A stretch of 20,296 bases of DNA, from the IMG/VR virus record IMGVR_UViG_3300024358_000414, positions 1 through 20,296 of that record, one strand, 5' to 3'. The notes beneath the pieces are model-generated. The model saw only the letters and a list, made by a program, of their open reading frames with translations. It was not told the DNA's origin and made no database searches. A program made the position numbers and the translations under genes. Positions 2,512-18,954 of the stretch are shown piece after piece (position 1 is the first letter of the stretch; the number at the start of each line of letters is the position of its first letter). The stretch comes from a virus.

Positions 2512-2835
2512 TTATACTCCGAAACTTGACCCGCAACCGCAAGTAGTAGTTGCGTTAGGATTCTTTATTGTAAATTGAGAGCCCATTAGCTCTTCTTTAT
2601 AATCTATTTCTGCACCTTGCAGATACTGCATACTCATGCTGTCTACTAGCACTTTAAACTCGTCCAAAGGGATTTCAAAATCGTCTTCGTTTACTTCTTC
2701 ATCAAACGTAAAACCATAGCTAAAACCGCTGCATCCGCCGCCTTGTACAAAAGTACGCAGAGCTAGTTTAGGATTGCCTTCTTCATAGAGTAAATCCTTA
2801 ATTTTTTCTTTTGCTGACTGGGAAATAGTAATCAT
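2512..2835 (-). CDS. iscA: IscA/HesB-type iron-sulfur cluster assembly protein
   Basis: This 107-aa protein has the full A-type Fe-S carrier signature: GGGCSGF with Cys35 and the C-terminal CGC pair (Cys99 and Cys101). The spacing and total length match IscA/ErpA/HesB proteins. In cells this family binds Fe or a [2Fe-2S]/[4Fe-4S] cluster and passes it to target enzymes. The frame opens further upstream at 2862, but ATG 2835 is chosen because GAGGG lies 5 bases before it and the family alignment starts there ([12 protein letters not shown]). GATAAATA at 2853-2860 makes it a late gene, and it directly precedes the giant virion protein. The assignment to the family is firm; whether it acts like IscA, ErpA or SufA cannot be told. 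Confidence 0.93.
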
Positions 2836-2852
2836 GATTGCCCTCGATATGG

Positions 2853-2860
2853 TATTTATC
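2853..2860 (-). promoter_or_regulatory. T4-type late promoter (GATAAATA) for iscA and the virion gene
   Basis: The minus strand reads GATAAATA followed by C, one change from the T4 late consensus TATAAATA. The same variant precedes the tail-fibre gene at 8493-8500. It ends 17 bases before the chosen iscA start, which leaves room for a short leader with the GAGGG ribosome site. Confidence 0.65.
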
Positions 2861-2894
2861 AAAAGGATTTTATAACCTTAATGTAAATACAATT

Positions 2895-3182
2895 ATGTAC
2901 TTAGGACAAGAATACGCACAACAATGCCATTATCGCAAGAGCAAGTATGGTACTATGCATGCCTATATGCGTAAAAAAACTGTGCTGATATTTCAGTGCG
3001 ATTGTTGCAGCGGCATGTTTAAGCGCGACAAGGGCAACATGGATCCTAAACGCTTAAACAATAACGTCTATCATGTTTGCGGTGACTGCGATGCTAAAAA
3101 GTTTGCCCAGAGTAAAGGCGTAGAAGCGAGAAAAGTTTGGGATATGCCTGTCAGTAGTCTTAAGACGATAGACCAACTCTAG
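2895..3182 (+). CDS. Small CxxC/CxxC zinc-finger phage protein
   Basis: This 95-aa plus-strand gene starts at ATG 2895 (MYLGQEYAQQ). It has a treble-clef or zinc-ribbon-like pair of knuckles, C35-DC-C38 and C62-GD-C65, separated by a basic stretch (MFKRDKGNMDPKRLNNNVYH). HNH-like or simple zinc-ribbon folds are both possible, but no catalytic HNH triad is obvious. It is divergent from iscA, with 59 bases between the starts. It converges on sodA/sodB and overlaps its 3' end by 23 bases. No good Shine-Dalgarno sequence is visible before ATG 2895. An upstream extension to 2838 exists but would run through the iscA promoter and leader. It resembles small zinc proteins common in T4-like aquatic phages; function unknown. 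Confidence 0.75.
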   Translation: MYLGQEYAQQCHYRKSKYGTMHAYMRKKTVLIFQCDCCSGMFKRDKGNMDPKRLNNNVYHVCGDCDAKKFAQSKGVEARKVWDMPVSSLKTIDQL

Positions 3183-3717
3183 AACTAATAACGTTCCAGT
3201 TAACGATTTTCCACTGATTGTTTAGGTAACCCTTTTTATCAGCTTGATAATCTAATGCCCAGGCATGTTCCCACCAGTCAATTAAGAATACAATATCCAT
3301 CTTAATTTCGTGATTTTTAATGGTTTTAATTTCACCATTACGAGCTAGATACACCCAGCCGCTGCCTTGAATAGACATAGCAGTTTTTTCAAATTCTTTC
3401 TTAAAATTATCAAAGTCTTTAAAATGTTTAGCAATAAACTCGCCCGCAGACCCATCTGGCTTGTTAGTGCCTTTTGGTGCTTGAAATTGTGTAAAATATA
3501 AGTCATGCAAGAATGCGCCAGCTTCGTTAAAATCTGGATCGCCTTCACCTGAATTATATCGATCTACATAGGCTTTGTAAAGTTTACCGTAATGATAGTC
3601 CAGCGACTGTTTACTTAGGCTACGCCCGAGTTCAGTTTTTCCGTAAGGTAGCGGAGTTTGCGTTAAGGTCTTAGTTGTTTTGCCTTCGTTTAAAACATAT
3701 TTGATAAAATTATACAT
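3160..3717 (-). CDS. Fe/Mn-family superoxide dismutase
   Basis: This 185-aa protein matches the iron/manganese superoxide dismutase family, which converts superoxide to oxygen and hydrogen peroxide. Metal ligands are visible: His42 in DYHYGKLYKAYV, His71 in AFLHDLYF, and Asp147 and His151 in DWWEHAW. Tyr50 matches the active-site Tyr34, and GSGWVYL and NQWKIVNWNVISSR are standard blocks. Two second-shell positions differ. The His30 position of E. coli Fe-SOD is Leu46, and the usual active-site Gln seems to be His136 (KNHE), with Gly67 at the alternative Gln site as in Mn-type enzymes. The metal cannot be decided. ATG 3717 has no strong ribosome site. A 128-base gap with possible RNA structure separates it from the upstream glycosyltransferase gene. 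Confidence 0.93.
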   Translation of the reverse strand: MYNFIKYVLNEGKTTKTLTQTPLPYGKTELGRSLSKQSLDYHYGKLYKAYVDRYNSGEGDPDFNEAGAFLHDLYFTQFQAPKGTNKPDGSAGEFIAKHFKDFDNFKKEFEKTAMSIQGSGWVYLARNGEIKTIKNHEIKMDIVFLIDWWEHAWALDYQADKKGYLNNQWKIVNWNVISSRVGLSS

Positions 3718-5076: not shown

Positions 5077-5321
5077 TCGAATCTTTTAAGTTTTTCTAGG
5101 TACTGATTGAATTCAATCAGTATCTTTTCTTTTTGCTTGCCGATATCGTCGGATACAGCCTGCTGATCCAACTCTTCGAGTCGCTCTCGAAGAGTTTCAA
5201 TACGATGAATTAATTGTTCTCTAGATAAGTTTGAGCCTGATTGTACAGTTCCATGCTGGCGAGGTTTTTGCCCTTGCTTTCGCACATGATGTCGAATTGG
5301 TTTAGAAAATTTATTGCCCAT
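5073..5321 (-). CDS. Small coiled-coil protein overlapping uvdE
   Basis: This 82-aa frame has a basic N-terminus (MGNKFSKPIRHHVRKQGQK) and a heptad-rich helical C-terminus (LIHRIETLRERLEELDQQ... then KILIEFNQYLEKLKRF) that looks like a genuine coiled coil. Its first 112 bases lie inside the 3' end of uvdE in another frame. No good ribosome site precedes ATG 5321. A GTG at 5285 is the only other early start seen and would still overlap by 76 bases. The part downstream of uvdE (5209-5073) is not covered by another gene, which supports real coding. The start is uncertain and the function unknown. Confidence 0.65.
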   Translation of the reverse strand: MGNKFSKPIRHHVRKQGQKPRQHGTVQSGSNLSREQLIHRIETLRERLEELDQQAVSDDIGKQKEKILIEFNQYLEKLKRFD

Positions 5322-6238
5322 TCGTTAGTTTTGTAATTCCAGTAAAAATCTGAATGTGCTCTTAGTTTTTGTTTTTTGTATCCAGATTCTAAGAGCAGTT
5401 TGTAATCTGGCATAGTGTTTGGGCAATGCCCAACAAGTATATCTTCTCGAGATACGGAGTAATGCATAGTAGGACGAACGCCGCGCCAACTATCAACAAC
5501 CTTCTTGATTCTGTCCTCAGTAGGATCAATGTATTCTCCTTCTCTGATCCAATGATGATGTATATCAAGCACAATAGGGACAAGATCAGAAATAGTAAGG
5601 CAGTCATCTAAACCCCAAGAATTTTCTTCATTCTCGATAGTAATGCAATTACGTGCTTCAGGACTAAGTCGTTTGTAAGCACTTCTAATGCCGTCTGGGC
5701 CTTGTTTGCCTGAGATATGTACATTAATCTTAAAGTCTTGAAATTTCTTACCGTAGCCCATGTATCGAGCCATGTCGGTATGATATTCAAATTCTTCTAT
5801 AGATCGTTGAACAATGCCTTCGTTAACACTAGCAAGAACAACAAACTGGCCAGGATGCATAGAAACACGGGTACCGCTTGCACGAGCACTATCACCGATA
5901 AGGCTAAAATTGCGCTCAAGATAGCTGACAACGTCAGACTTACGCCAAAAATAACTCCAGCTAGGCTCGGTATAAGCAGGAAGAATGTCGCTACTAAGGC
6001 GAACCATCCTAAGATTTTCATCAAGACCTCCTACACGGTCTACAAGATTTTTTGTAGCCGTAATGTTTCGAACCATCAGGTCCCACAAGCGTTGTTCGGC
6101 AACGTCTTTGCTTTGTTTATTTAACCAAGTTATGGTTGTTGTGCCAGTGTTATACTGACTTGCATCGGCATCTTTTTTGATGCCATCTACTTGATCGGCG
6201 TGATCGATCCATTTACACGCAAAGCCTATTTTGCCCAT
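5210..6238 (-). CDS. uvdE: UV damage endonuclease (UvdE/UVDE family)
   Basis: This 342-aa protein matches UVDE, a metal-dependent TIM-barrel endonuclease that nicks DNA 5' to UV photoproducts and some other lesions. Conserved metal-site blocks are in order: RVSMHPGQFVVLAS, INVHISGKQGP, ITIENEENSWG, VPIVLDIHHHW, MHYSVSRED and HSDFYWN. ATG 6238 is chosen over an upstream TTG (6316) for three reasons: MGKIGFACKWIDHAD is the natural family start, AAGG lies upstream, and the ATG shares one base with the stop of the preceding small gene (TAATG). It is the third gene of the unit driven by the promoter at 6989-7016. A role in repair of phage DNA in sunlit water is an inference. Confidence 0.95.
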   Translation of the reverse strand: MGKIGFACKWIDHADQVDGIKKDADASQYNTGTTTITWLNKQSKDVAEQRLWDLMVRNITATKNLVDRVGGLDENLRMVRLSSDILPAYTEPSWSYFWRKSDVVSYLERNFSLIGDSARASGTRVSMHPGQFVVLASVNEGIVQRSIEEFEYHTDMARYMGYGKKFQDFKINVHISGKQGPDGIRSAYKRLSPEARNCITIENEENSWGLDDCLTISDLVPIVLDIHHHWIREGEYIDPTEDRIKKVVDSWRGVRPTMHYSVSREDILVGHCPNTMPDYKLLLESGYKKQKLRAHSDFYWNYKTNEWAINFLNQFDIMCESKGKNLASMELYNQAQTYLENN

Positions 6239-6420
6239 TACCAATGCCTTATAACGCCTGCAATTATGAAAAAGTTTGTGATAATGTATATTAACACAAT
6301 TAACGTACGAATGCAAGCGATTCGGTCCGCCTCGGCGTCCGAACTGCCTGCTTTTTCGCCTAGAGCTTTAGCCCAAATGCGCCACATTTTATCCTTCGTA
6401 GATTGCTGAGTTGGCTCCAT
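6238..6420 (-). CDS. Small single-pass membrane protein
   Basis: This 60-aa protein (MEPTQQSTKDKMWRIWAKAL...) has a polar N-terminal half and one C-terminal transmembrane helix (TLIVLIYIITNFFIIAGVI) ending in RHW. The frame extends to a TTG at 6435, but ATG 6420 is the more likely start. It overlaps the end of the QueD-like gene by 32 bases, and its stop forms TAATG with the uvdE start, which argues that it is translated. Function unknown. Confidence 0.75.
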   Translation of the reverse strand: MEPTQQSTKDKMWRIWAKALGEKAGSSDAEADRIACIRTLIVLIYIITNFFIIAGVIRHW

Positions 6421-6916
6421 GTTCGAACACTTCAACAGATTTAACTCTCACACTTGGATTGATTGGATAACGCATATTACCATTTGCTAACAGCTCTGCC
6501 ATTTTGTCATATGCCATTTTAGCAAACATTTCGCAACCTACAGCAGGTACAATGCGTAAATCGCAAACACCTTGTCTGCGATATGGTTCTACTTGCACAC
6601 GCTCCGCATTGCCATCGTGTTCTGGATTTGAACTCCAGCCACTCATTTCTTTAAAACGATCCAGCATAGGGTCATCTTCTGCAATTACCAAAGTATGGTC
6701 AAACATATAGTCTGCCCACTCTTTGAATACCTTTAGTCCACCAAAGTCCATACACCAATTTTTGTCATCTAGTGTATCACATTCAAATATGAGTTTGATA
6801 CCAATTGAATATCCGTGTAGTGTTGAGCAGTGACTATGTGTGGCACGCCATTGTCTAAAACAGCATGATAAGCCGCGATCGTTTCCGTAAGTTTTTGTTG
6901 AATAGAATTTTGCCAT
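6389..6916 (-). CDS. QueD/6-pyruvoyl-tetrahydropterin synthase-like protein
   Basis: This 175-aa T-fold protein belongs to the 6-carboxy-tetrahydropterin synthase/PTPS family. In cells QueD turns dihydroneopterin triphosphate into 6-carboxy-tetrahydropterin for preQ0 and queuosine. Visible landmarks are the zinc and catalytic block RATHSHCSTLHGY (His27, His29, Cys30, His34), FDHTLVIAEDDP, VPAVGCEMFAK and VFEHGANSA with Glu165. The usual HGH motif is HGY here, so the zinc site is not standard. It leads a unit with a small membrane gene and uvdE. AAGGAG sits 6 bases before ATG 6916 and a near-perfect promoter lies 73 bases upstream. No queC, queE or guanine-transglycosylase gene is in the window, so the product cannot be decided. 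Confidence 0.88.
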   Translation of the reverse strand: MAKFYSTKTYGNDRGLSCCFRQWRATHSHCSTLHGYSIGIKLIFECDTLDDKNWCMDFGGLKVFKEWADYMFDHTLVIAEDDPMLDRFKEMSGWSSNPEHDGNAERVQVEPYRRQGVCDLRIVPAVGCEMFAKMAYDKMAELLANGNMRYPINPSVRVKSVEVFEHGANSAIYEG

Positions 6917-9781: not shown

Positions 9782-9810
9782 ATTATAGCACCGAAATGTA
9801 CTTATGTCAA
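9782..9810 (-). promoter_or_regulatory. Perfect sigma70 consensus promoter
   Basis: TTGACA (9810-9805), a 17-base spacer and TATAAT (9787-9782) match the consensus at all 12 positions. The -35 box overlaps the end region of the radical SAM gene (stop at 9804-9802 lies in the spacer). Start of transcription is expected near 9775. Confidence 0.93.
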
Positions 9811-11172
9811 GCTCTTGCATTCAGCATACAGCTCCGCTAATTCTGGAAATGTGTCCAAAAAATTGGTATTTCTGCGTTTATCGTGCTCATCAAAAAACAA
9901 AGCAAAATCTTTTAGATAATTGGCTTCTCGTTGCTCACCAAACAAGTATTGGATTCGCTCCAATTTAGAAACTTCCCAACCGTGGAATCCTTTACCATCA
10001 CAGTAATTTGACTCCATAAATTTTATTTGTTTTGCTATTTGAGCCTTGTATTCTAACGGAAGTATTCTAACACTCATCCATTTTGGATTATCCAAATAAG
10101 GAATGTCTAAATTGATTGAACGATCCGGGTCGTAGTGTTTTAATTTCATTAACAATACATCTTTTAAAAATTCTGTGTATGAAGTAACAGAAAGAGCATT
10201 GTAAGTTGACATTATACTAAAGTTTGCTTTCGGCACTTCGCTTAAGAATCTATGACAATTGTCTAGCCATGTGTCGTAGTTCATGCCGTTTCTGATATAT
10301 TCAGCTTTTGCGCCATACGCTTCGGCACTTGTAAACAACGTAAATCTTTTAACAGCATTTGTTTCTTGAATGATTTTAATCTTGTCAAGAAATTTATCAA
10401 ATAGTTTGTCAGGTAAAACACAATTACTGTTAATAGCAAGTTCTAAATTAGGGTTAGGGTTTTCAATAATATAGTCAAGAACTTTAAAGGTATCTTTACT
10501 CATTAAAGGCTCACCACCTGTGATACGGAATGTATGAAGTGTTGGATAAATTTCCGGCCACCATTTCCAAAATGCTTCAACATATGGATTATGTTCCTTG
10601 ATAGGAATAGGCATTTTACCTTGATGCTTAGTGTGTTCTAAATTATTGTATTGAAGTGTAGTAGGATACCCACCAAATTTTTCAATTTCTTCCATCCACT
10701 TGCTAGAAATGTGTGGACTACAATAGGCACACTTAAAGTTACAAGCATGACTAAAACTAACTTCAAGATAAGTTGGCTTTATGTTATGTTCCCAGCCTGC
10801 TTCCATCACATCAAAATAACGAGACTTGCCTGCCCATTCGTCTGTGCTTTTATAGATCCTATCACTAAAGATATCTGAATCGGTTGGCGCAGAGTCTTCA
10901 ACTTGCCAGCAAAAATGACACTCTTCTGGTCTACTACCAGTCATCATCATTTTACGTTGTTCTTTTTTAAACTTTGTATTGTGTAAAGCACTAGGATCCT
11001 CTAAAATTTCTTCTAAAGGAATTTGATGTGTATTTGGATGATGGCAACTATGTGTATGTCCGTTTTGCAAATGCAAAGTGACTTGAAGCCACTTTGCAAG
11101 ACACATACCAGGACCGGTTCGATCTAATATTGTTTTAGCTTTTCGAAGCCAAATGATTCTTTCATCTTTCAT
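9802..11172 (-). CDS. Twitch-type radical SAM protein
   Basis: This 456-aa protein carries the radical SAM [4Fe-4S] motif CNFKCAYC (about residues 144-151) and the S-adenosylmethionine GGEP motif (about 219-222). An upstream CHFC (85-88) within RPEECHFCWQVED and other N-terminal Cys and His residues (HTHSCHHP) could bind an extra cluster. I recognise the overall pattern, including SHACNFKCAYCSPHISSKW, from twitch-domain radical SAM proteins of aquatic phages. The substrate is unknown. QueE is unlikely, because QueE has a different Cys spacing. ATG 11172 overlaps the TGA of the Trp-rich gene as ATGA. It is the last gene of the unit started at 14945. Fe-S dependence gives a possible link with the phage iscA, but that is inference. 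Confidence 0.9.
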   Translation of the reverse strand: MKDERIIWLRKAKTILDRTGPGMCLAKWLQVTLHLQNGHTHSCHHPNTHQIPLEEILEDPSALHNTKFKKEQRKMMMTGSRPEECHFCWQVEDSAPTDSDIFSDRIYKSTDEWAGKSRYFDVMEAGWEHNIKPTYLEVSFSHACNFKCAYCSPHISSKWMEEIEKFGGYPTTLQYNNLEHTKHQGKMPIPIKEHNPYVEAFWKWWPEIYPTLHTFRITGGEPLMSKDTFKVLDYIIENPNPNLELAINSNCVLPDKLFDKFLDKIKIIQETNAVKRFTLFTSAEAYGAKAEYIRNGMNYDTWLDNCHRFLSEVPKANFSIMSTYNALSVTSYTEFLKDVLLMKLKHYDPDRSINLDIPYLDNPKWMSVRILPLEYKAQIAKQIKFMESNYCDGKGFHGWEVSKLERIQYLFGEQREANYLKDFALFFDEHDKRRNTNFLDTFPELAELYAECKSLT

Positions 11173-12002
11173 GTCCAAAGACTCTCGCGAATCTTGATAA
11201 GACGAATCATCATTTCTTCCTCTTCCTTAGTATATGCTTCTTCAATTTCTCGAAGTTTTTTATGTGCTTCATCGCTCATCTTTTTAAGTTCAGGGGTCTT
11301 ATCGGCGCTACCAAAACTTAAACGACCACCGTTGGCCGCACGACTTGCTTCACAGTAAGCACTCCAACCACTGGCATCGTACGCATCAGGGCGATTGCGA
11401 TATGTCACAGTCCACCAAGTATAAAGCTCGATAATTTCTTTGGCGGCCTTGGCTTGATAAGTTGGTTCAGCTAGATGTTTTTCACCTTCGTCAAGGAACT
11501 CTTCGTTGGTTAATGTAGTAGCCCAGCGTAGATATTCAAGCCCAGCTTCTGGGCAACGCCATGTACGCCAACGCAACCAACCTTTACGGTACCATGGAAC
11601 ATTGAACTTAGTCTTAGCTTCATCACTCCAAATGCAGTGATGCCACGCTTGTTCTATTTCAACAAAATCCACAAGCTCGTTGAACAAACAAGGAAGAAAG
11701 CGATTGCCAACGTCGCTCCAATTACCAGGTTTAATGTCTCGAGGATGTGCGGTAAGACGATGGCTGTGACTAACCCAGCGATTATTAATATAATAGCGTA
11801 TGTCATTTAGACGATCCGGAATGTAATAAACAAATTTTTGAAGATAGTCGAGTCCTTCTTCGGCAATCCACCAACGAATAGGATGTGCGGCTTTTGCACG
11901 ATCTTCCCAGTCGTTCCATTCTTCACTGGTGCCGCACTTGAGCTTTGGTGTGCCACGCAACCAATCCGCAAACGGTCCGATTGTCCAATAATGACTACGC
12001 AT
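11169..12002 (-). CDS. Conserved Trp-rich T4-like phage protein, unknown function
   Basis: This 277-aa protein is rich in Trp, Tyr and His (RWWIAEEGLDYLQ, YYINNRWVSHSHRLTAHPRD, FLPCLFNELVDFVEIEQAWHH, RWRTWRCPEAGLEYLRW) and ends in a charged helical tail. I recognise it as a widespread uncharacterised protein of cyanophage-like and other aquatic T4-like phages. No catalytic motif is certain. ATG 12002 follows the BI-1 stop by two bases, with AAAAAGGA before it. Its stop overlaps the radical SAM start (ATGA), so the two are translationally coupled and may act together. The ordered His and Asp residues could suggest a metal site; this is a guess. Confidence 0.85.
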   Translation of the reverse strand: MRSHYWTIGPFADWLRGTPKLKCGTSEEWNDWEDRAKAAHPIRWWIAEEGLDYLQKFVYYIPDRLNDIRYYINNRWVSHSHRLTAHPRDIKPGNWSDVGNRFLPCLFNELVDFVEIEQAWHHCIWSDEAKTKFNVPWYRKGWLRWRTWRCPEAGLEYLRWATTLTNEEFLDEGEKHLAEPTYQAKAAKEIIELYTWWTVTYRNRPDAYDASGWSAYCEASRAANGGRLSFGSADKTPELKKMSDEAHKKLREIEEAYTKEEEEMMIRLIKIRESLWT

Positions 12003-12004
12003 TT

Positions 12005-12703
12005 TTAATCCTTTTTATCACCAAACAACTGCAATAGACTTAAGAAAATATTGATAAAATCTAGGTACAGAGTCAATGCACCGGTCACTTCTGCGGCAGG
12101 GCTCGAATCAGTACTAACAATTTCTCGAATTTGTTGTGTATCATAAGCAGTTAGGCCCATGAAGATCACAATAGCTAACGCACTAATTACCATTTGCATA
12201 ACTGTGCTACCAATAAAAATATTGATAAGACTAGCAATAACAATGGCAATCAAGCCAACAAACATAAATTTACCTAGGCTATCTAGATCCTTTTTGGTAA
12301 AGTAACCATAGAAGCTCATAGTACCAAACAATACTGCTGCGCCCATAAATGCACTAACAATACTGTGCATAGTATAAACAGCAAAGATAACAGCAAAGCT
12401 CAAGCCCATCAAAGCCGCAAAACCTGCTAGAAGTGCAATAGCAATTTCTTTTGGCGGGTTAGCGTTAAGGGCAATAGTAACTCCAAAGACTGCTAATAGC
12501 GGTGCAAAGATCACCACATAGTGCATAATACCTGTGAAGAAAAATTTCACAAGCTCGGGACTAGTTCCTACAAAGAAACTGACCATCATGCTGACTAAAG
12601 TAGCAAGTCCCATGTAGCCATAAACACGGCCCATAGCTTGATTTACTTCGCCAGCGGTGCGATAGTTAATAATACCATCGCTTGCATAGTTATGTCCAAA
12701 CAT
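12005..12703 (-). CDS. Bax inhibitor-1/YccA family membrane protein
   Basis: This 232-aa protein has about seven hydrophobic helices (LATLVSMMVSFFVG, YVVIFAPLLAVFGV, IAIALLAGFAALMG and others) and the family's C-terminal hallmark GALTLYLDFINIFLSLLQLFG, with AYDTQQIREI before the last helices. BI-1 proteins are pH-sensitive ion-leak channels; the bacterial member YccA inhibits the FtsH protease. In a phage it may protect membrane proteins from host FtsH, as has been considered for lambda CII/FtsH control. That role is inference. ATG 12703 follows MazG by three bases, with AAGGAG overlapping the mazG stop. Confidence 0.93.
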   Translation of the reverse strand: MFGHNYASDGIINYRTAGEVNQAMGRVYGYMGLATLVSMMVSFFVGTSPELVKFFFTGIMHYVVIFAPLLAVFGVTIALNANPPKEIAIALLAGFAALMGLSFAVIFAVYTMHSIVSAFMGAAVLFGTMSFYGYFTKKDLDSLGKFMFVGLIAIVIASLINIFIGSTVMQMVISALAIVIFMGLTAYDTQQIREIVSTDSSPAAEVTGALTLYLDFINIFLSLLQLFGDKKD

Positions 12704-13334: not shown

Positions 13335-13579
13335 TTTAGTGCTTCCATAGTCTGCCGCTTGGCTTCTTCCTTAACTTCTTCTTTGTGGATTGTTTGTAAT
13401 CCACGAAACATTTCTTCAACAACATGTATAATAGCGGCCTTACCGTCATCTGTCAAGTGACTGTATTCTGGACTTACACTACTTTCGTGCCAAACACGTT
13501 GATTTTTTGCTAACTCAAGCATTGCACCATACAACATATCCTTGTGCATACTGCGACGAATATCAAATCTTTTCGCCAT
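13331..13579 (-). CDS. Small alpha-helical phage protein
   Basis: This 82-aa protein (MAKRFDIRRSMHKDMLYGAM...) is predicted to be helical with a charged Glu/Lys-rich tail. No domain is recognised. The frame is open up to 13780, but that part is antisense-free overlap with the ligase gene. ATG 13579 is chosen because GAGGG sits 7 bases upstream and the overlap with the ligase gene is then only 17 bases. It is coupled to the next gene through GTGA. Confidence 0.8.
   Translation of the reverse strand: MAKRFDIRRSMHKDMLYGAMLELAKNQRVWHESSVSPEYSHLTDDGKAAIIHVVEEMFRGLQTIHKEEVKEEAKRQTMEALK
13428..13456 (-). promoter_or_regulatory. Possible internal sigma70-type promoter
   Basis: Inside the 82-aa gene the minus strand reads TTGACA (13456-13451), 17 bases and TATTAT (13433-13428), one mismatch to consensus. 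It could add transcription for the small membrane protein, mazG and BI-1 genes. It lies in coding sequence, so chance is possible. Confidence 0.4.
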
Positions 13580-14882
13580 TGTCAAACCCTCTAAAATGTA
13601 AGAAGCGCGGAAACCGTAGAGAATAACTTCCATCCTGGTTTTGTGTGATAGCGTCAGCACGGACTTCCACAATTTGACCAATAAGGGTTTCACGAGACTC
13701 CCAATAATTATCACGATCGGAATCACTAAAACCAGAACCGACGTTAACTCGAATTGACTTTCCATCATCCTCACCTTCACAAACTAAGGCACCCAATTTA
13801 CCTACGTTACGACCTGTGCCTTCTTCAACAGCCGTAACAGCTAACGATACTTCAATGAACGGTTTTAGTTTAAGCCAGCTGGCAGTTCTTTTGCATTCAT
13901 AAGGCGCATTAGGGTCCTTAATCATGATGCCTTCATAGCCGCCTTCTATTGCCTTTTGATTAATTTTTCTATATTGTTTGCGGCCTGCACTAGTATCGAG
14001 ATCAACTTCTTCGTGATCTAAACAAGTAACATTGGGCAAGTCTGCTTGATGTTTTTCTACCCAAGCCTTGACATAGGCACTACGAGTTGTTTGATCTTTG
14101 TCCCACCGACCTTCTTGAAACTTGTCAAAAGGACATAAATCAAATAAATGCAGAACAGCATCGTCTGCAGCAACATCACTCTTGCGATGCACTTGTTTCA
14201 TAAGGTCTTGAAAACTACTAGACATAACTTCGCCGTCTAACACTAGATCGTACTTAGGAGGGTCTTTCTTTACAACGGAACTGATTTGTTCTTTAATTTT
14301 CTCAAAGTTAACTAGCTCTTTACCATTGCGACTGAATTGATCCACACGGCCATCAGTATGGACGATAGTAATAACGCGAACGCCATCGAGTTTGACTTCG
14401 ATAAGTTTTTTTCCAGTAACTTTGGATTCATGATTAGCACTATCATGAGCAAGCTGGCAACTAAAAACAGGAACTGCATATTGAGGCCACTTCTTTTCTA
14501 CAACTTTGTTAATGGTCTTTTCGCTTGTACCACAGCGAAGATCCTTGATAAGAATACGGCGGTACCAACCATTCCATTCTGATTTAGTAGATTGCTTTAT
14601 GGCTTCAGCAACGGCATCACGGGCATCGTTGCCGGTGAGGTGACGATCACGTAAACTGATAGCAAGACTAATAAAATTGTTCCAATCAAGCCCAAGGCCG
14701 TCTTCATCTTTCTTCTCCGGTATTTGTTTAAGTCCAAAAGTTATCATCGAATCCAGAGCAAGACGACAGCCTTCAAAAAATTGATTGTTGCCTGCTTCTG
14801 CTTGTGCAAGAATAATTGCTTCTTTGTTCAAACGGCTAGGATGATCTTCGAGAGAAGAAATGACAAACTGGCAAGGATCGCT
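13563..14882 (-). CDS. ATP-dependent DNA ligase (T4 gp30 type)
   Basis: This 439-aa protein seals nicks in duplex DNA using ATP. Nucleotidyltransferase motifs are in order: motif I EVKLDGVR with the adenylated Lys164, motif III DLVLDGEVM, motif IV EGIMIKDP and motif V SWLKLKP. An N-terminal helical domain and a C-terminal OB fold (GQIVEVRADAIT..GSYSLRFPRFLHFR) flank them. Length is close to T4 gp30. The frame extends to TTG 14897, but GTG 14882 is chosen because GGAG lies 6 bases before it. It is the first gene after the perfect promoter at 14917-14945 and would serve phage replication and repair together with uvdE. Confidence 0.95.
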   Translation of the reverse strand, partial: SDPCQFVISSLEDHPSRLNKEAIILAQAEAGNNQFFEGCRLALDSMITFGLKQIPEKKDEDGLGLDWNNFISLAISLRDRHLTGNDARDAVAEAIKQSTKSEWNGWYRRILIKDLRCGTSEKTINKVVEKKWPQYAVPVFSCQLAHDSANHESKVTGKKLIEVKLDGVRVITIVHTDGRVDQFSRNGKELVNFEKIKEQISSVVKKDPPKYDLVLDGEVMSSSFQDLMKQVHRKSDVAADDAVLHLFDLCPFDKFQEGRWDKDQTTRSAYVKAWVEKHQADLPNVTCLDHEEVDLDTSAGRKQYRKINQKAIEGGYEGIMIKDPNAPYECKRTASWLKLKPFIEVSLAVTAVEEGTGRNVGKLGALVCEGEDDGKSIRVNVGSGFSDSDRDNYWESRETLIGQIVEVRADAITQNQDGSYSLRFPRFLHFRGFDNGEKI

Positions 14883-14916
14883 CACAATGAACTCCAATAG
14901 TTAACTTGATGTAACT

Positions 14917-14945
14917 ATTATACAGTCTATATATCAGTATGTCAA
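14917..14945 (-). promoter_or_regulatory. Perfect sigma70 consensus promoter for the ligase unit
   Basis: TTGACA (14945-14940), 17 bases and TATAAT (14922-14917) match consensus fully. The stop of the metallopeptidase gene (14936-14934) lies within the spacer. Transcription would start near 14910, leaving a short leader before GTG 14882. Confidence 0.93.
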
Positions 14946-15662
14946 GTGATTATTAGTACGAAATGGCTTGCCTGCATAAGCGTATTCTAATTGGCGCATA
15001 ATTTTTAGCTTCATTTGTCGTACTTTTGGGTGATCGTGGTTATTATTAAAAGCGGCTAGGAATCGTTGCCACATGGTTTTTCTTTTACGATTGGGTTGAT
15101 TTTTATCAAGATATTCTGCGATTCCTTTTGGATCCCAACCAAACATGTCAATCATATCGCAGGCTAAGTTAAAGGCGTGTGCGCCCATCTCGTCTCTATC
15201 TCCATAATATTCCTGTTGTTTGCGATCTTTGGCGTACTGAGCTGTACTTTGATACATAGGAATTGGTTTAAAGTTACGAGCACGGAACTGTCGTGTGTGT
15301 ATAATTTCATGCAACATAATATCCGAAAAAACTACACAAATTCGTTGCCAACGATATAGTGATAGTTTCATAGATTCAATGTCTGGAGGAAATGCTAGTT
15401 GAACTTCGATAAAACGACTATAGCCTTTGCGGTCATAGTCTGAATGGTACATGCCTCCTATCCAAATTTCGTTACCTTTTGCTTCTTTAAAACGTTCGCT
15501 AGTAACACGAATTGGAAGATGTTTTTTAAGATGTTTGCTAATTTTGCTAGAGATTTCGTCAATAGCTACCCGTCTGCCTACAAACTCGCTTTTAAGTTTG
15601 TAAAGCATTGAGTACAGCGTTTCGCGGTCCAGTAAAGACCAGTTGAATGCCTTGCGGGCCAT
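14934..15662 (-). CDS. HExxH zinc-metallopeptidase-like protein
   Basis: This 242-aa protein contains HEIIH (His118, Glu119, His122) in a helix (SDIMLHEIIHTRQF) and, about 36 residues on, DEMGAHAFNLA with Glu158 as a likely third zinc ligand. That is the arrangement of gluzincin-type metallopeptidases. The N-terminal 110 residues are basic and mixed alpha/beta. The late promoter TATAAATA at 15683-15690 and AGGAG before ATG 15662 make it a late gene. Capsid or scaffold processing, or attack on host wall or proteins at lysis, are possible; none is shown. It is not the usual T4 gp21 prohead protease, which is a serine enzyme. Confidence 0.8.
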   Translation of the reverse strand: MARKAFNWSLLDRETLYSMLYKLKSEFVGRRVAIDEISSKISKHLKKHLPIRVTSERFKEAKGNEIWIGGMYHSDYDRKGYSRFIEVQLAFPPDIESMKLSLYRWQRICVVFSDIMLHEIIHTRQFRARNFKPIPMYQSTAQYAKDRKQQEYYGDRDEMGAHAFNLACDMIDMFGWDPKGIAEYLDKNQPNRKRKTMWQRFLAAFNNNHDHPKVRQMKLKIMRQLEYAYAGKPFRTNNHLTY

Positions 15663-15682: not shown

Positions 15683-15690
15683 TATTTATA
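15683..15690 (-). promoter_or_regulatory. T4-type late promoter (TATAAATA) for the metallopeptidase gene
   Basis: A perfect TATAAATA followed by C on the minus strand ends 20 bases before ATG 15662, in the 59-base gap after clpP. A TATAAT also occurs in this gap near 15712, but its -35 match is poor. Confidence 0.78.
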
Positions 15691-15721: not shown

Positions 15722-16312
15722 TTATGGGCGTTTTGTAACAATTTCGTCAACCAAGCCAAAATCAACAGCTTCTTGGGCACTCATAAAGTTGTCTCGTTCC
15801 ATAGCTGCATAAAATTCGTCAAAAGTTTTACCCTTTGAATTATGATTAACATAAATCTGGGTAAGATTTTGCTTCATTTTTAGGATCTCTTTTACTTGGA
15901 TTTCCATGTCTGTTGCTTGCCCGCCAGCACCACCGCTAGGTTGGTGAATCATGTGACGTGCATTTGGAAGCATTTTACGTTTGCCAGGAGCACCTGCTTG
16001 GGCTAGTAGACTGCCCATACTGCAAGCCTGTCCCATTACAATAGTCGCAACGTCCGGACGAATAAACTGCATAGTATCGTAGATTGCCATACCAGCGGTA
16101 ACAACACCGCCAGGACTATTGATGAAAAAACTAATATCTTCATTGCCTTGACTCTCCAAAAATAAGAGCTGTGCTACGATAAGACTAGCACTATGCTCGT
16201 TAACATCCGTGTCTAGCATAACGATACGGTCTTTTAATAGACGACTATAAATGTCGTAACTGCGTTCTCCACGAGCTTCTTGCTCAATTACCATTGGTAC
16301 CAAATGTGGCAT
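15722..16312 (-). CDS. clpP: ClpP-family serine protease
   Basis: This 196-aa protein is a full-length ClpP with an intact catalytic triad: Ser98 in [10 protein letters not shown], His123 in MIHQP and Asp174 in ERDNFMSA. It also has INSPGG and the FGLVDEI end. ClpP forms a tetradecameric chamber that degrades proteins fed by an AAA+ partner such as ClpX or ClpA. No such ATPase is seen in the window, so host ClpX/ClpA or another partner may be used. ATG 16312 shares a base with the stop of the small zinc-ribbon gene (TAATG), with GGAG upstream. It is the last gene of the envelope cassette and is probably transcribed from 17862 or 18954. Confidence 0.95.
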
Positions 16313-16488
16313 TACTCTTCTCCAAAAATATAAGCGGCCATTTTGCGCTCAGTTGTAGCTTCATCTTTCATAGCGCATTCAAAACAGATATTTTCATCGT
16401 TTGGACCGTAAGGTCTGCACTCATCTACTTTTCCGCACATTTCGCAAACTTCATCAGGTTGCTGTGCAATAAATCCTCGACCGCTCAT
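16312..16488 (-). CDS. 58-aa CxxC/CxxC zinc-ribbon protein coupled to clpP
   Basis: This short gene encodes 58 residues starting [20 protein letters not shown]. Cys15 and Cys18 (CEMC) and Cys35 and Cys38 (CFEC) form a compact zinc ribbon, with a further Cys24 between, followed by an acidic helical tail ending IFGEE. Start and stop are both coupled: its ATG overlaps the TGA of the two-TM gene as ATGA, and its TAA shares a base with the clpP ATG. A similar small zinc domain occurs at the N-terminus of ClpX, so an adaptor role is conceivable. That is inference only. Confidence 0.8.
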
Positions 16489-16970
16489 TCTTCAATACCT
16501 TCATACTCTGCAAGTTGTTTGCGGAAAACTTCTAGTTGTTCCATTAGGTTAACAAGTCCGTCGTGATTCATAGTGATAGCACTATATCCCATTTTGAATT
16601 CTAGTCGATTCTCGCTAGTCATACCTAGTGTGTAATAAGTTACAGCAGGCTTTTTAGGTTCGGGTGGAAGATAACCACCACCATCACCTCCGCCGTACTC
16701 TGTAGTTTCCTTTTGTTCAGGAAATGGAATTACATTACTGGGTTTCTTTTTAATCCAATTTAACATTTTTCTATCCCATTCTACATCCATGTTAAGCCAA
16801 CGTCCAACAGGTGGACACCAAAAAGGCATTGCTAATACTATAAGCCACACTAGTTGAATAAGCTCTGGTCTAATGTCTTTGTAGTATAACGCAACAGGCA
16901 AGCCAATACCTAGATAAATGGCGCCTGTCCAAAACATCCAGTAGCCGCCTGTGCGTTCAAATAACTTCAT
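16485..16970 (-). CDS. Two-TM membrane protein with a cytoplasmic C-terminal domain
   Basis: This 161-aa protein (MKLFERTGGYWMFWTGAIYL...) has two transmembrane helices (about residues 10-30 and 36-60). A Gly/Pro-rich linker (YGGGDGGGYLPPEPKKP) and a small C-terminal domain follow (YYTLGMTSENRLEFKMGYSA, then LVNLMEQLEVFRKQL). Only one base separates its ATG 16970 from the stop of the SPFH gene. The frame reaches a TTG at 16982, which would overlap that gene. I do not recognise the family by name; similar proteins occur in aquatic T4-like phages. Confidence 0.82.
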   Translation of the reverse strand: MKLFERTGGYWMFWTGAIYLGIGLPVALYYKDIRPELIQLVWLIVLAMPFWCPPVGRWLNMDVEWDRKMLNWIKKKPSNVIPFPEQKETTEYGGGDGGGYLPPEPKKPAVTYYTLGMTSENRLEFKMGYSAITMNHDGLVNLMEQLEVFRKQLAEYEGIEE

Positions 16971-16971
16971 G

Positions 16972-17769
16972 TTACTTGCCAATCACCACTTGACCTTTAA
17001 AGTCGTAGGGCACAACAACAGTATTGACTTTACCGTTCTTGATACCTTCGGCAATGTCTGCCTGTGCCTTAGCCTGCATGTATGCAATACTTTGGGCACC
17101 TTGGTTGGCTAGAGCTTGCATACGACGAGCTTCTGCTTCGGCAGTCTTTACTTCAACTTCTTTCTGCTTGAACTCGTTCTTGGCACGAACAAGAGCATTA
17201 GCAGATTCAACAACAGAGTCTGCTGGCACAATGTTACGAATTAACACTTGGCTAACAGTAATAGCACCGTCCAATTTCTCATCTACTAGAGTCTTTTGGA
17301 TTTGTTCGCGAATAGCCTGCTCCATCGGCTGACGATTATCAGCCATATCCAATGCTTCGTACTTTCGTGCTTCTTTATAGATAGCATTACGAGCGGCATT
17401 GTAAATGTAATTAAACATCAAATATGTGTCGCCGTCGTGCTTGATGTGGAAGGCTTTTGACTTGCTATTGTAAAGTTCAGCAACTTGGCTTTGGTTCAAG
17501 TTATAGATAACAATAGCATCAAAGTCTTTCATGGTGCTGTTATCTTTGGCAATAGGAGTCATGTCGTCAAGTTTGACGTTAACATCTTTGACTGGGAATG
17601 TAAGAACATCACCAATAATAACTTGGTTAAAACTACCGGGTAGTAGCTCTTCATTTTTAACTTGCTTGTCAAAGCCAACCCGCAAGCCAACTTCACCAGT
17701 TTCGATACGAGTACAGCCTGTAGCAAGAACTGCGGCGGCAATAAGACCAAGGGTTGCGATACGTTTCAT
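16972..17769 (-). CDS. SPFH-domain (prohibitin/stomatin-like) lipoprotein
   Basis: This 265-aa protein begins with a signal peptide ending in LATGC, so Cys19 is a likely lipidation site. It continues with an SPFH domain (TRIETGEVGLRVGF, LTFPVKDVNVKLDDM, about residues 22-190) and an Ala/Glu/Lys-rich coiled-coil tail (about 190-245, VRAKNEFKQKEVEVKTAEAEARRMQALANQG in part). SPFH proteins form rings or cages on membranes and often govern membrane proteases, as HflKC does for FtsH. A lipid anchor would place this one outside the cytoplasm. AAGGA precedes ATG 17769. It follows an internal perfect promoter and sits directly before a two-TM gene, a zinc-ribbon gene and clpP. Confidence 0.9.
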   Translation of the reverse strand: MKRIATLGLIAAAVLATGCTRIETGEVGLRVGFDKQVKNEELLPGSFNQVIIGDVLTFPVKDVNVKLDDMTPIAKDNSTMKDFDAIVIYNLNQSQVAELYNSKSKAFHIKHDGDTYLMFNYIYNAARNAIYKEARKYEALDMADNRQPMEQAIREQIQKTLVDEKLDGAITVSQVLIRNIVPADSVVESANALVRAKNEFKQKEVEVKTAEAEARRMQALANQGAQSIAYMQAKAQADIAEGIKNGKVNTVVVPYDFKGQVVIGK

Positions 17770-17781
17770 GTTTGTGTGTCC

Positions 17782-17958
17782 TTAAAATAAAATAACGATT
17801 GTTGTCATCACTGCTACTGCTAACAGTGAAACAATTATACTATAGCCAAGTGTCTTTGTCAAAGACCATTTTTCCTTTCCACTTAATGCTCGCCAGCTGA
17901 CAATACTAAAATGGATTAGAACCGCAAAGACTATGAATACTAACCAAAGTCTAATCAT
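17782..17958 (-). CDS. 58-aa two-helix membrane protein
   Basis: This short gene encodes MIRLWLVFIVFAVLIHFSIV..., with two transmembrane helices (residues about 3-21 and 40-57) joined by a basic loop (WRALSGKEKWSLTKTLG). Its ATG overlaps the TGA of the 44-aa gene as ATGA. The stop lies 12 bases before the SPFH start. A perfect promoter lies inside its coding sequence. It could be a holin-like or small regulatory membrane protein, but nothing specific supports a function. Confidence 0.72.
   Translation of the reverse strand: MIRLWLVFIVFAVLIHFSIVSWRALSGKEKWSLTKTLGYSIIVSLLAVAVMTTIVILF
17834..17862 (-). promoter_or_regulatory. Perfect sigma70 consensus promoter inside the 58-aa gene
   Basis: The minus strand reads TTGACA (17862-17857), 17 bases and TATAAT (17839-17834). 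Transcription would start near 17827 and give the SPFH, two-TM, zinc-ribbon and clpP genes their own transcript. Confidence 0.75.
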
Positions 17959-18089
17959 GGATTTTCCTTTTTTACTTCTTCTTTTTTACGTTCTATAGGA
18001 GGAGGAAAGTATGGCTCTATTACATAGTGGTTGGCACTCCACCAACCAAATGCTGTAACAAAGCCATAAAAGAATATCTCAAGGACCAT
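17955..18089 (-). CDS. 44-aa membrane-associated microprotein
   Basis: This gene encodes 44 residues beginning MVLEIFFYGFVTAFGWWSAN. One hydrophobic N-terminal helix is followed by a Pro-rich stretch (EPYFPPPIERKK) and a charged tail. Its ATG shares a base with the stop of the LPP20-like lipoprotein gene (TAATG), and its stop overlaps the next ATG (ATGA). The double coupling is the main evidence that it is translated. Confidence 0.68.
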   Translation of the reverse strand: MVLEIFFYGFVTAFGWWSANHYVIEPYFPPPIERKKEEVKKENP

Positions 18090-18643
18090 TATTGATCCAA
18101 TTCTTTAAATGCCTCCGGAGCACGTTTGATAGCCATTTCTTGAAGTTTGTGCTGTTCTTTAGCACGTTTCAAGATGTTAGCATCGCCTGTAGGGAGAGCT
18201 ACTAGAACATAGGTACGGAACCATTTACCTTCCGGTACTCGTTTAATTTCTTTAAGTTCAACGCCAGTAAGGTCAACTTTGTCGCAAGAGCTACGACTTA
18301 CCATTTCATTAATGCTAGTGGCAGAGTTTTCGCCTTCTGAACGATAGACCTTGTTACGCATACTCATTGTACCGCCAGCAGTCATACAGATTTTTCTGTA
18401 GGCATCGTCTTTAGCCAGCAAGTCTGCATAACTAAAGTCTGTGCTACGGCCTGTGCCTGCTTCATATACGGCACTGGTGCTGGACGGAACTTCATACATC
18501 CACTTTGGAGCCTTATCAATAGCACGTTCAACCAATTTTTCTTGGCGTTCACGTTCCATGTCAGCTCGTTTGCCGTAAGGATCAGTTGTACCGCAAGCAG
18601 CCAATACAGCAACAATCGGCAATAAGGTAAGTATTTTTTTCAT
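18089..18643 (-). CDS. LPP20-like lipoprotein
   Basis: This 184-aa protein has a lipoprotein signal (MKKILTLLPIVAVLAAC, lipidated Cys17). The mature part includes APKWMYEVP, VYEAGTGRSTDFSYADLLAKDDAYRKIC and a C-terminal helical region. The pattern of an APKW block, a G-T-G-x-S stretch and a helix with DAYRKIC resembles LPP20-type outer-membrane lipoproteins. The final Asp after position +1 is absent (Cys-Gly-Thr-Thr), so an outer-membrane destination is likely under the enterobacterial +2 rule, which may not hold in this host. It follows the entericidin-like gene with a TAATG overlap. Confidence 0.78.
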   Translation of the reverse strand: MKKILTLLPIVAVLAACGTTDPYGKRADMERERQEKLVERAIDKAPKWMYEVPSSTSAVYEAGTGRSTDFSYADLLAKDDAYRKICMTAGGTMSMRNKVYRSEGENSATSINEMVSRSSCDKVDLTGVELKEIKRVPEGKWFRTYVLVALPTGDANILKRAKEQHKLQEMAIKRAPEAFKELDQ

Positions 18644-18765
18644 TATTTTCCACTCATCTTTTCTTTAGTCCATTCAGCGGACGATTTGATATCCTGACCA
18701 ACACCTGCTACTGTAGAGCAAGCGGTCAGGGCCAGTGCTACCATTAATGCAAATACTACTTTCAT
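18643..18765 (-). CDS. Entericidin-like small lipoprotein
   Basis: This 40-aa protein (MKVVFALMVALALTACSTVA, then GVGQDIKSSAEWTKEKMSGK) matches the entericidin A/B pattern: a lipoprotein signal ending in xTAC, then C-[ST]-T-V-x-G-x-G-x-D-[IV], then a short amphipathic helix. In enterobacteria, entericidin B is a bacteriolytic small lipoprotein and entericidin A is described as its antidote. This sequence cannot say which activity, if any, is kept. It is coupled at both ends: ATGA with the 42-aa gene, TAATG with the LPP20-like gene. The small size makes the family call moderate. Confidence 0.72.
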   Translation of the reverse strand: MKVVFALMVALALTACSTVAGVGQDIKSSAEWTKEKMSGK

Positions 18766-18890
18766 TTTGCCATCTCCTGACTCTGTGTTTTAACTGTGTC
18801 TACACCTTTGTCTAGCATACGAGCAATGCCGGAAAACCCAACAGTAGCTAGTACCAATCCAAAGATAGTGCCTGCGATAAATGCCTTCAT
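18762..18890 (-). CDS. 42-aa hydrophobic protein, first gene of the envelope cassette
   Basis: This protein (MKAFIAGTIFGLVLATVGFS...) has one N-terminal transmembrane helix or signal and a short polar tail (GIARMLDKGVDTVKTQSQEM). It resembles small membrane proteins of aquatic T4-like phages. GAGG precedes the ATG, the perfect promoter at 18926-18954 lies upstream, and its stop overlaps the entericidin-like ATG (ATGA). Confidence 0.75.
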   Translation of the reverse strand: MKAFIAGTIFGLVLATVGFSGIARMLDKGVDTVKTQSQEMAK

Positions 18891-18925: not shown

Positions 18926-18954
18926 ATTATATGTGAACTCAAGTCAAATGTCAA
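18926..18954 (-). promoter_or_regulatory. Perfect sigma70 consensus promoter for the envelope cassette
   Basis: TTGACA (18954-18949), 17 bases and TATAAT (18931-18926). The -35 box begins 1 base after the stop of the secreted Cys-rich protein gene. Transcription would begin near 18919. Confidence 0.93.

Follow-up and report, generated by a model that had tools for sequence, protein, structure and literature searches.

A conserved phage gene frame with a variable slot, and a small two-TM hairpin protein paired with an SPFH lipoprotein

Background

Nine open reading frames (ORFs) follow one another closely on the minus strand of the IMG/VR virus record IMGVR_UViG_3300024358_000414, from position 18890 down to position 15722 of the 20,296-base stretch which we call the window. 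They include an SPFH/Band 7 lipoprotein, preceded by a 58-residue protein with two predicted transmembrane (TM) segments, and they end in the peptidase ClpP. The question raised by this locus is whether such tightly packed genes constitute one functional system, as was proposed by an initial annotation that took them for an early-expressed, envelope-remodelling cassette ending in ClpP. The order of these genes in related phages, their conservation and their promoter motifs, all of which are read directly from sequence, point to a different architecture, namely a conserved phage frame with a slot for exchangeable cargo, in which the SPFH protein appears to be paired with the small two-TM protein and not with ClpP.

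Results and discussion

Gene order separates a frame from a slot

The nine ORFs are designated g1 to g9, the next gene downstream is g10, followed by a DNA ligase gene, and the genes upstream of g1 are g0, n1 and n2. The reading frames, the perfect promoter ahead of g1 and the near-universal overlaps described in the initial annotation are borne out: six of the eight junctions overlap, three as ATGA (g1/g2, g4/g5 and g7/g8) and three as TAATG (g2/g3, g3/g4 and g8/g9), and the other two are short gaps of 12 nt (g5/g6) and 1 nt (g6/g7). Relatives of the window in IMG/VR include contigs of up to 364 kb, and the T4 capsid family gp23 is found in 10 of the 10 contigs of at least 140 kb among the 26 contigs searched; the long relatives are therefore T4-like.

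For the comparison of gene order we used the best 80 of 392 relatives from a scan with the SPFH protein and the best 80 of at least 598 from a scan with ClpP, and because only these best-scoring matches were used the counts below are restricted to near relatives. A set of 184 loci was reduced to 127 clusters by DNA similarity, and 18 genes were mapped in them with iterated profiles. The clusters, built on DNA or SPFH similarity with no tree, are not fully independent since they are grouped by similarity (the SPFH proteins of contigs G010 and G011, for instance, are near-identical). Synteny was counted upstream of ClpP in the 48 clusters with at least 3.5 kb of upstream sequence, out of 72 with a canonical ClpP (more than 200 bits, a line chosen after the scores were known), excluding locus L081, which is the window itself.

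All nine genes occur in order in 1 of these 48 clusters, which is the window's own population; its close members, with 100% SPFH identity, are four contigs (L001-L004). Upstream of ClpP, n2 is present in 39 clusters, g3 in 37, g2 in 36, and g1 and g0 in 34 each; g7 is present in 20, SPFH in 11 (two of these being a prohibitin), g5 in 10, g8 in seven and g4 in three. Downstream of the canonical ClpP, g10 and the ligase each occur in 66 of 72 clusters. No mapped gene stands between g3 and ClpP in 13 of the 37 clusters with g3, and in various loci the same position is occupied by a BI-1 protein, a MazG-like protein, other lipoproteins, a prohibitin, or a peroxiredoxin-like or macro-domain-like protein, the last two names being our own reading of the sequences. 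Conservation of the full order among relatives, which had been set beforehand as the check on the idea of one system, is thus absent, and on the synteny counts we reject a single conserved nine-gene system. The nine genes instead appear to combine a conserved phage frame (g1-g3, ClpP, and beyond it g10 and the ligase) with a swappable cargo slot, occupied here by g4-g8.

The SPFH protein and its hairpin partner

The SPFH protein (g6, 16972-17769, minus strand, as are all features of the window given here) belongs to the SPFH/Band 7 family (Pfam Band_7, E = 4.6e-18, 66.3 bits against a cut-off of 23.6) and to phrog_200 (E = 4.2e-32), so that its designation as SPFH is solid; in NCBIfam no match was obtained. 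Its lipobox LATGC would give a mature protein starting C-T-R-I-E-T-G-E-V-G, and the SPFH proteins of phages S-CREM1 and B23 have no lipobox. The AlphaFold2 model of g6 (pLDDT 77.9, pTM 0.60), in which C-terminal helices are present at 184-244, predicts a prohibitin-type fold: Foldseek matches it to PHB1/2 (E = 2.3e-11), HflK/C (5.1e-11) and QmcA-YbbJ (2.6e-8), and human prohibitin, stomatin and erlin are also among the structures that it resembles. Z scores are 13-16, the VIA value for both erlin and PHB being 16. A scan of genome contigs, which finds close relatives only, returned one relative, in a contig of a metagenome-assembled genome (MAG).

The protein encoded immediately upstream, g5 (17782-17958), is a 58-residue two-TM hairpin, its hydrophobic segments being called by a Kyte-Doolittle rule. 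A g5 homologue is present in 42 of 44 SPFH clusters formed at 95% SPFH identity and lies directly upstream of SPFH in 41 of the 44, with at most one micro-ORF of 28-33 residues between them. Counted from the first ATG (the start had at first been set as the Met nearest to 58 residues), 40 of the 42 copies are 58 residues long, those of L058 and L072 having 77 and 57, and this length is held while identity to the first sequence drops to 29%. The association also emerges from a sequence-independent rule, by which a hairpin is an ORF of 40-100 residues that has two hydrophobic segments, no more and no fewer, and whose end is at most 120 nt from the next gene. Such an ORF directly precedes 65 of 69 SPFH genes; for the remaining ORFs of at least 150 residues in the same loci the figure is 22 of 960 (Fisher p = 2e-78, a statistic which ignores relatedness), and for ClpP genes 0 of 73. 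The four SPFH genes missed by the rule are those of L065, where a hairpin lies 4.5 kb upstream, of L077, where the ORF has 44 residues and one hydrophobic segment, and of the prohibitin loci L117 and L123.

The pairing extends to more distant phages. Among loci of the S-CREM1 type the hairpin is directly upstream in 38 of 39 (39 of 40 loci were tested, the upstream sequence of L200 being too short, and duplicates were kept), with 24 distinct hairpins; in L216 one gene intervenes. Of 189 records of named phages with an SPFH match 11 were examined, and a hairpin precedes SPFH in 10 of them: BUCT-ZZ01 (58 residues), S-CREM1 (53), B23 (54), Erwinia phage phiEa2809 (64), Salmonella phage SM5 (69), and PhT2 (90, from Acinetobacter), R2919 (83), phiAB441 (92), At2 (84) and nACB1 (85). 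In both Ackermannviridae the hairpin ORF is unannotated (L086, about 2800-3000, for phiEa2809; L236, about 1760-1970, for SM5). We found no description of a hairpin-SPFH pair in phages in a full-text literature search judged on titles and the starts of abstracts, whose scope excluded subscription papers and some preprints. Taken with the rule-based counts, these loci indicate that SPFH pairs with the hairpin and not with ClpP.

In loci L117 (3947-4873) and L123 (4154-5083), which are close relatives, the slot holds a true prohibitin homologue directly before g7 (Band_7, E = 7e-30; Prohibitin-2, E = 6e-31), with N-terminal TM segments at 4-20 and 56-72 and an uncertain start codon. It is possible that this protein is a natural fusion of hairpin and SPFH.

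In 13 representative loci among those listed, the hairpin and SPFH genes are separated by one for a one-TM microprotein of 28-33 residues, which is missing from the window. Its 28-residue form, found at L005:7910, L007:6805, L014:5694, L100:1996 and elsewhere, is kept as protein where the DNA has changed: L005 and L014 encode the same protein, and L007 differs by one residue. A related form of 28-33 residues occurs in L022, L073, L061 and L012.

Promoters outside and inside the hairpin gene

The window contains seven sites of the type TTGACA-17-TATAAT with at most one mismatch and a 17-nt spacer, against 0.31 +/- 0.56 expected; for looser promoter-like sites, matching at 9 of 12 positions, it shows no enrichment (27, where 22.9 are expected). 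One of the seven is the early-type sigma70 promoter before g1 (18926-18954), a match at 12 of 12 positions. The background for such promoters with at most one mismatch is 0.044 per 150 nt; 30 of 39 cluster representatives have one before g1, and one precedes the ligase in 61 of 82, that of the window being at 14945-14917. The box TATAAATA, which we take to be the T4-type late promoter consensus, lies past ClpP at 15683-15690. Of 83 cases of g10, 61 have it in the 100 nt ahead of the gene (background 0.006 per 100 nt), and the same interval ahead of the 17 other gene families, g1-g9 among them, never contains it; in the window alone it is at chance level (3 against 1.8 expected). Since the g1 promoter is kept and the late box stands only before g10, the genes g1-g9 look early, with the early/late boundary just past ClpP. 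In this respect the promoter motifs support the early expression envisaged by the initial annotation.

A second perfect site, which the initial annotation had overlooked, is situated within the coding sequence of g5, ahead of SPFH (17862-17834). We examined its counterparts in 41 of the 42 g5 genes, excluding the 57-codon gene of L072. A site with at most one mismatch is embedded in 20 of the 41, as against 0.8 +/- 0.86 (maximum 3) in 200 synonymous recodings, and one with at most two mismatches in 25, as against 4.6 +/- 1.9 (maximum 11). The codons which spell the promoter are the favoured ones, namely Leu TTG in 23 of 24 (background 0.25), Thr ACA in 19 of 23 (0.33), Ser AGT in 26 of 33 (0.23) and Ile ATA in 15 of 17 (0.15). 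The spacer is 17 nt in 25 of 25, and the sites occupy two registers, 66 nt and 78 nt before g5 ends; the two registers argue for selection on the promoter even though the p-values are weakened by shared ancestry. The hairpin gene would thus hide a selected promoter ahead of SPFH, and where this promoter works SPFH and the genes downstream can be transcribed without g1-g4.

ClpP belongs to the frame and has a candidate partner of its own

The last of the nine genes, g9 (15722-16312), encodes a canonical ClpP peptidase (Pfam, 252.7 bits, E = 2.7e-75), in which the Ser/His/Asp triad recognized by the initial annotation is preserved in 63 of 63 aligned relatives; the alignment covers 63 of the 72 ClpP clusters, the rest lacking a usable start or length. 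The protein passes the PRK00277 cut-off and misses the TIGR00493 equivalog cut-off (274.5 against 308.6). The axial N-loop and most positions of the ATPase-docking pocket are kept; at what are presumably pocket positions Y60 and F112, the residue is polar in 63 of 63 and Lys in 57 of 63, respectively.

A full-length ClpA-like protein is encoded in 11 of 11 contigs of at least 95 kb with a canonical ClpP and in 0 of 3 without one (14 such contigs among the 26 searched; Fisher p = 0.003). Contig G015, whose ClpP contains an internal stop and falls under the 200-bit line with 167.7 bits, has no ClpA. All of the ClpA-like proteins stay below the curated ClpA cut-off of 993 bits, the best scoring 899.7; the two Walker A motifs are kept in all 11, as is an [IV]GF loop, presumed to dock ClpP, at the place of IGL in E. 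coli ClpA. These unfoldases, which have an N-domain, are encoded in loci L244-L254 (contigs G003, G004, G007, G008, G010, G011, G013 and G018-G021); ClpX scores above its cut-off in three and ClpS in seven of the 26 contigs. The co-occurrence and the [IV]GF loop make a phage-encoded ClpAP likely, and ClpP probably works separately as the peptidase of this protease, with ClpA encoded elsewhere in the genome. As SPFH pairs with the hairpin, and ClpP is a frame gene alongside a separate ClpA, the proposal of one system ending in ClpP lacks support; it is weakened further by the conserved internal promoter, which parts SPFH and the genes downstream from g1-g4. A role of ClpP as a protease partner of SPFH, of the kind of NfeD1b, was also considered and rejected on the grounds that it is a canonical ClpP with its own candidate ClpA.

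Clp components are not novel in large phages. Agrobacterium phage Atu_ph07 encodes ClpX, ClpA, ClpP and ClpS (PMC6102473), other jumbo phages carry ClpP or ClpA (PMC7824862), ClpA is reported in one lineage of large aquatic phages (PMC12619734) and ClpP in marine viral genomes (PMC5332604). The Atu_ph07 ClpP is 67% identical to g9, and ClpA-like proteins, ClpX and ClpS are likewise found in the contigs related to the window. The difference is that we are dealing here with gp23-bearing T4-like phages, in which ClpP occupies a conserved early frame by the ligase.

Resemblance to bacterial SPFH systems

The closest parallel to the phage pair is offered by the bacterial SPFH-NfeD operons, such as QmcA-YbbJ and YuaG-YuaF. 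According to the survey 'Evolution of prokaryotic SPFH proteins' (PMC2636767), 229 of the 353 members of the SPFH1 type are encoded in one operon with NfeD; the words 'phage', 'virus' and 'viral' do not occur in its main text. In both cases the SPFH gene adjoins a gene for a small membrane partner (in 65 of 69 for the phages), and the predicted fold of g6 matches QmcA-YbbJ. However, the phage partner has 53-92 residues, lies upstream and consists of the hairpin alone, without the soluble beta domain of NfeD (140-150 residues), and the phage SPFH is in most cases a lipoprotein.

The HflK/HflC-FtsH system is comparable in the predicted fold of g6, in the periplasmic location which g6 would share, and in that a small gene, yjeT, follows hflC in E. 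coli. It differs in that a lipobox takes the place of the TM anchor in g6, and the HflC and HflK family models do not recognize g6 as a member. Among phage proteins, g6 is a member of PHROG 200, which includes lipoproteins of Ackermannviridae and Acinetobacter phages; the family name takes no account of an upstream hairpin, which is unannotated in the records of phiEa2809 and SM5.

A proposed mechanism

The reading that we favour, and regard as reasonably probable, is that a frame and slot carry a mobile hairpin-SPFH module which acts as an early two-component membrane scaffold, comparable to SPFH-NfeD and HflKC, with ClpP acting separately. The frame would supply an early set of envelope proteins (the g1 peptide and the lipoproteins g2 and g3) together with ClpP, followed by the late metalloprotease and the early ligase, and the core of the slot would be the mobile two-gene module of g5 and g6. 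Anchored by lipid at the periplasmic side, the SPFH protein may oligomerize into a dome of the prohibitin/HflKC type, with the hairpin as its inner-membrane partner in a role like that of NfeD for the bacterial stomatins, and the promoter within the hairpin gene may raise SPFH early. More tentatively, such a dome could fence off or redirect the host's quality control of membrane proteins (the FtsH class) or its membrane microdomains, and thereby allow membrane proteins and lipoproteins of the phage to persist. Envelope remodelling as such, as claimed in the initial annotation, remains plausible for g1-g3 and for the hairpin with SPFH; what falls away is its attribution to one nine-gene system ending in ClpP.

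Several observations weigh against this scaffold. In E. coli, Thr at position +2 after the lipidated Cys directs a lipoprotein to the outer membrane, and of 60 of the 70 representatives with a simple lipobox pattern 53 have Thr and none has Asp at this position; by this rule, which may not be that of the host, SPFH would be placed away from a hairpin in the cytoplasmic membrane. The SPFH sequence profile found no relative in PDB at E <= 0.01, and g6 showed no similarity to HflC by BLASTP. Nor did g5 show similarity to YbbJ or YjeT, a weak test with single-sequence templates, and for lack of similarity the hairpin was rejected as a relative of either. With the low-complexity filter on, tblastn of g5 gave no match in the named phages, so that the distant hairpins are identified by where they lie and by their topology, and not by sequence homology; their charge pattern is also not uniform, the loop being positive in seven of nine tested and the tail in two from Acinetobacter. 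The pairing has exceptions in AM24 (the sole one of the 11 named phages with no hairpin neighbour), L065, L077, L193/L194 (a hairpin that reads in two frames and fails the rule), L216, and the single bacterial MAG contig, L235, which has no hairpin. An embedded promoter with at most two mismatches is absent from 16 of the 41 g5 genes, and the sequences behind the promoter statistics are related, not independent. BI-1 and SPFH do not co-occur significantly (10 of 18 compared with 2 of 8, p = 0.22), and an FtsH-type peptidase is found in just 1 of the 26 contigs, hence there is no direct FtsH link.

The rival with which the study of this locus began, in which SPFH, the two-TM protein and the zinc ribbon of an early nine-gene remodeller feed envelope proteins to ClpP as the effector, draws on the tight overlaps on a shared strand, on the early appearance of the genes up to the late box, and on one class of bacterial SPFH partners which has a ClpP-type protease motif (PMC2636767). 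Yet besides the single cluster with the full order and the freely changing slot, SPFH occurs without a canonical ClpP in three contigs of at least 140 kb and ClpP without SPFH in, for example, a 345-kb contig, all of which may be fragments, and, with a candidate ATPase for ClpP in the same phages and an internal promoter splitting the unit, we regard this rival as very improbable. A similarly low standing, if not a slightly lower one, is given to a virion or assembly role, by which the SPFH lipoprotein is packaged or organizes membrane-associated assembly. In the Kuttervirus Sajous1 the SPFH lipoprotein gp200 was detected by three spectra in CsCl-purified virions, as against 924 for the capsid, and the authors caution about debris (PMC10892097); the promoter motifs at our locus are moreover early-type and not late. 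Even if they derive from debris, the spectra suggest that the SPFH protein is at least made in one Kuttervirus (PMC10892097).

As to the effect of the module, control of membrane proteolysis or of microdomains is our tentative first choice, and two rivals to it both strike us as rather unlikely. One is superinfection exclusion or immunity, with the hairpin as an Imm-like inner-membrane blocker and SPFH as its scaffold, which would stop later phages from injecting. This would suit the early-type promoters and the short hairpins, which we take to resemble T4 Imm in size and topology, and a gene annotated as 'superinfection exclusion' lies at most two annotated genes from SPFH in both Ackermannviridae examined; against it, no immunity or exclusion family was detected among 41 hairpins (Pfam and PHROGs, E <= 0.05), and the exclusion-annotated neighbour in SM5 has 106 residues and no predicted TM segment. 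The other is counter-defence by membrane protection, in which the module stabilizes the membrane of the host, countering abortive-infection effectors or a depolarization caused by the phage, in the manner of PspA-linked SPFH. A Bacillus SPFH protein ties the phage-shock protein to the membrane (PMC8581546), and the phage module is mobile, slot-borne and, apart from the MAG relative among the close relatives scanned, nearly confined to phages; PADLOC, however, gave SPFH only a weak CorA match (E = 0.0056), and none for the other six proteins scanned.

Other genes of the locus

The first three frame genes encode g1 (18762-18890), of 42 residues with one hydrophobic N-terminal segment; g2 (18643-18765), a 40-residue entericidin-like lipoprotein coupled to g1 by its ATGA; and g3 (18089-18643), a lipoprotein of 184 residues with a weak likeness to LPP20. 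The likenesses noted by the initial annotation are there, but family membership is not: g2 scores 17.3 bits with Entericidin PF08085 (E = 0.0047) against a cut-off of 23.3, g3 scores 16.5 bits with LPP20 PF02169 (E = 0.012) against 25.9, and because these scores fall under the Pfam cut-offs the labels are resemblances only. LPP20 reaches E < 0.01 in just 1 of 30 g3 homologues, and the predicted fold of g3 has no match at E <= 0.001, the best named lead being HP1454 (4kzs, E = 0.063). We rejected g1 and g2 as a mini-spanin pair by reasoning only, from nothing but their length, which leaves some 20 residues outside the membrane.

In the slot, g4 (17955-18089) encodes a small membrane protein of 44 residues (phrog_3533, E = 0.0038), g7 (16485-16970) a two-TM segment with a conserved soluble C-terminal domain, for which PDB sequence relatives were sought and none found, and g8 (16312-16488) a zinc-ribbon-like protein of 58 residues with paired CxxC motifs (phrog_18256, 3.5e-10). 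The statement that almost all products are membrane or envelope proteins therefore needs qualification, as g8 and ClpP are not envelope proteins. In the downstream frame, g10 (14934-15662) is a late, metalloprotease-like gene with an HExxH motif in 82 of 84 and no Pfam family assigned, and an ATP-dependent DNA ligase follows at 13563-14897. Several loci have another copy of g10, some 1.6-5 kb upstream of n2.

The window also encodes a BI-1/TMBIM protein (12005-12703; Bax1-I, E = 9.5e-55), with no confident PHROG family. The gene is present in 12 of the 26 contigs searched, and in L097, L099, L137 and L152 it lies inside the g3-ClpP slot. The protein is nearer to E. coli YbhL (38% identity over 233 residues) than to YccA (31% over 114), and as its co-occurrence with SPFH is not significant a link to FtsH through the modulator YccA was rejected. 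An FtsH-type M41 peptidase domain is located in a 601-residue frame of contig G025 (of L160), at 17643-18209. A rich set of host-like enzymes, comprising an Fe/Mn superoxide dismutase, an IscA-like Fe-S protein, a UvdE endonuclease, a PTPS-like enzyme and a radical SAM protein, is encoded at 3160-3717, 2512-2862, 5210-6316, 6389-6916 and 9802-11178.

Implications

Tight gene overlap is no proof of one system; at this locus it is the analysis of order that separates frame from cargo. Phage SPFH proteins go under the names 'lipoprotein' or 'hypothetical', and the partner protein, at 53-92 residues and sometimes unannotated, is easily overlooked. In its widest form, to which we give somewhat less than an even chance, our proposal is that at least four families (Kyanoviridae, Straboviridae, Ackermannviridae and Schitoviridae) share an unrecognized membrane organizer made of the hairpin and a phage-specific SPFH protein, a viral miniature of the prohibitin or stomatin-NfeD systems, which re-partitions the membrane of the host and its proteases early in infection. 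This form, at the same strength, would include the 28-33-residue microprotein as an occasional third component, the prohibitin with a built-in hairpin as a substitute, and an SPFH gene often driven by a promoter written in the codons of the hairpin. The near-constant pairing across unrelated phages provides a handle on SPFH function and a very small SPFH system for structural and genetic studies, and it makes the remodelling of host membrane quality control by phages testable.

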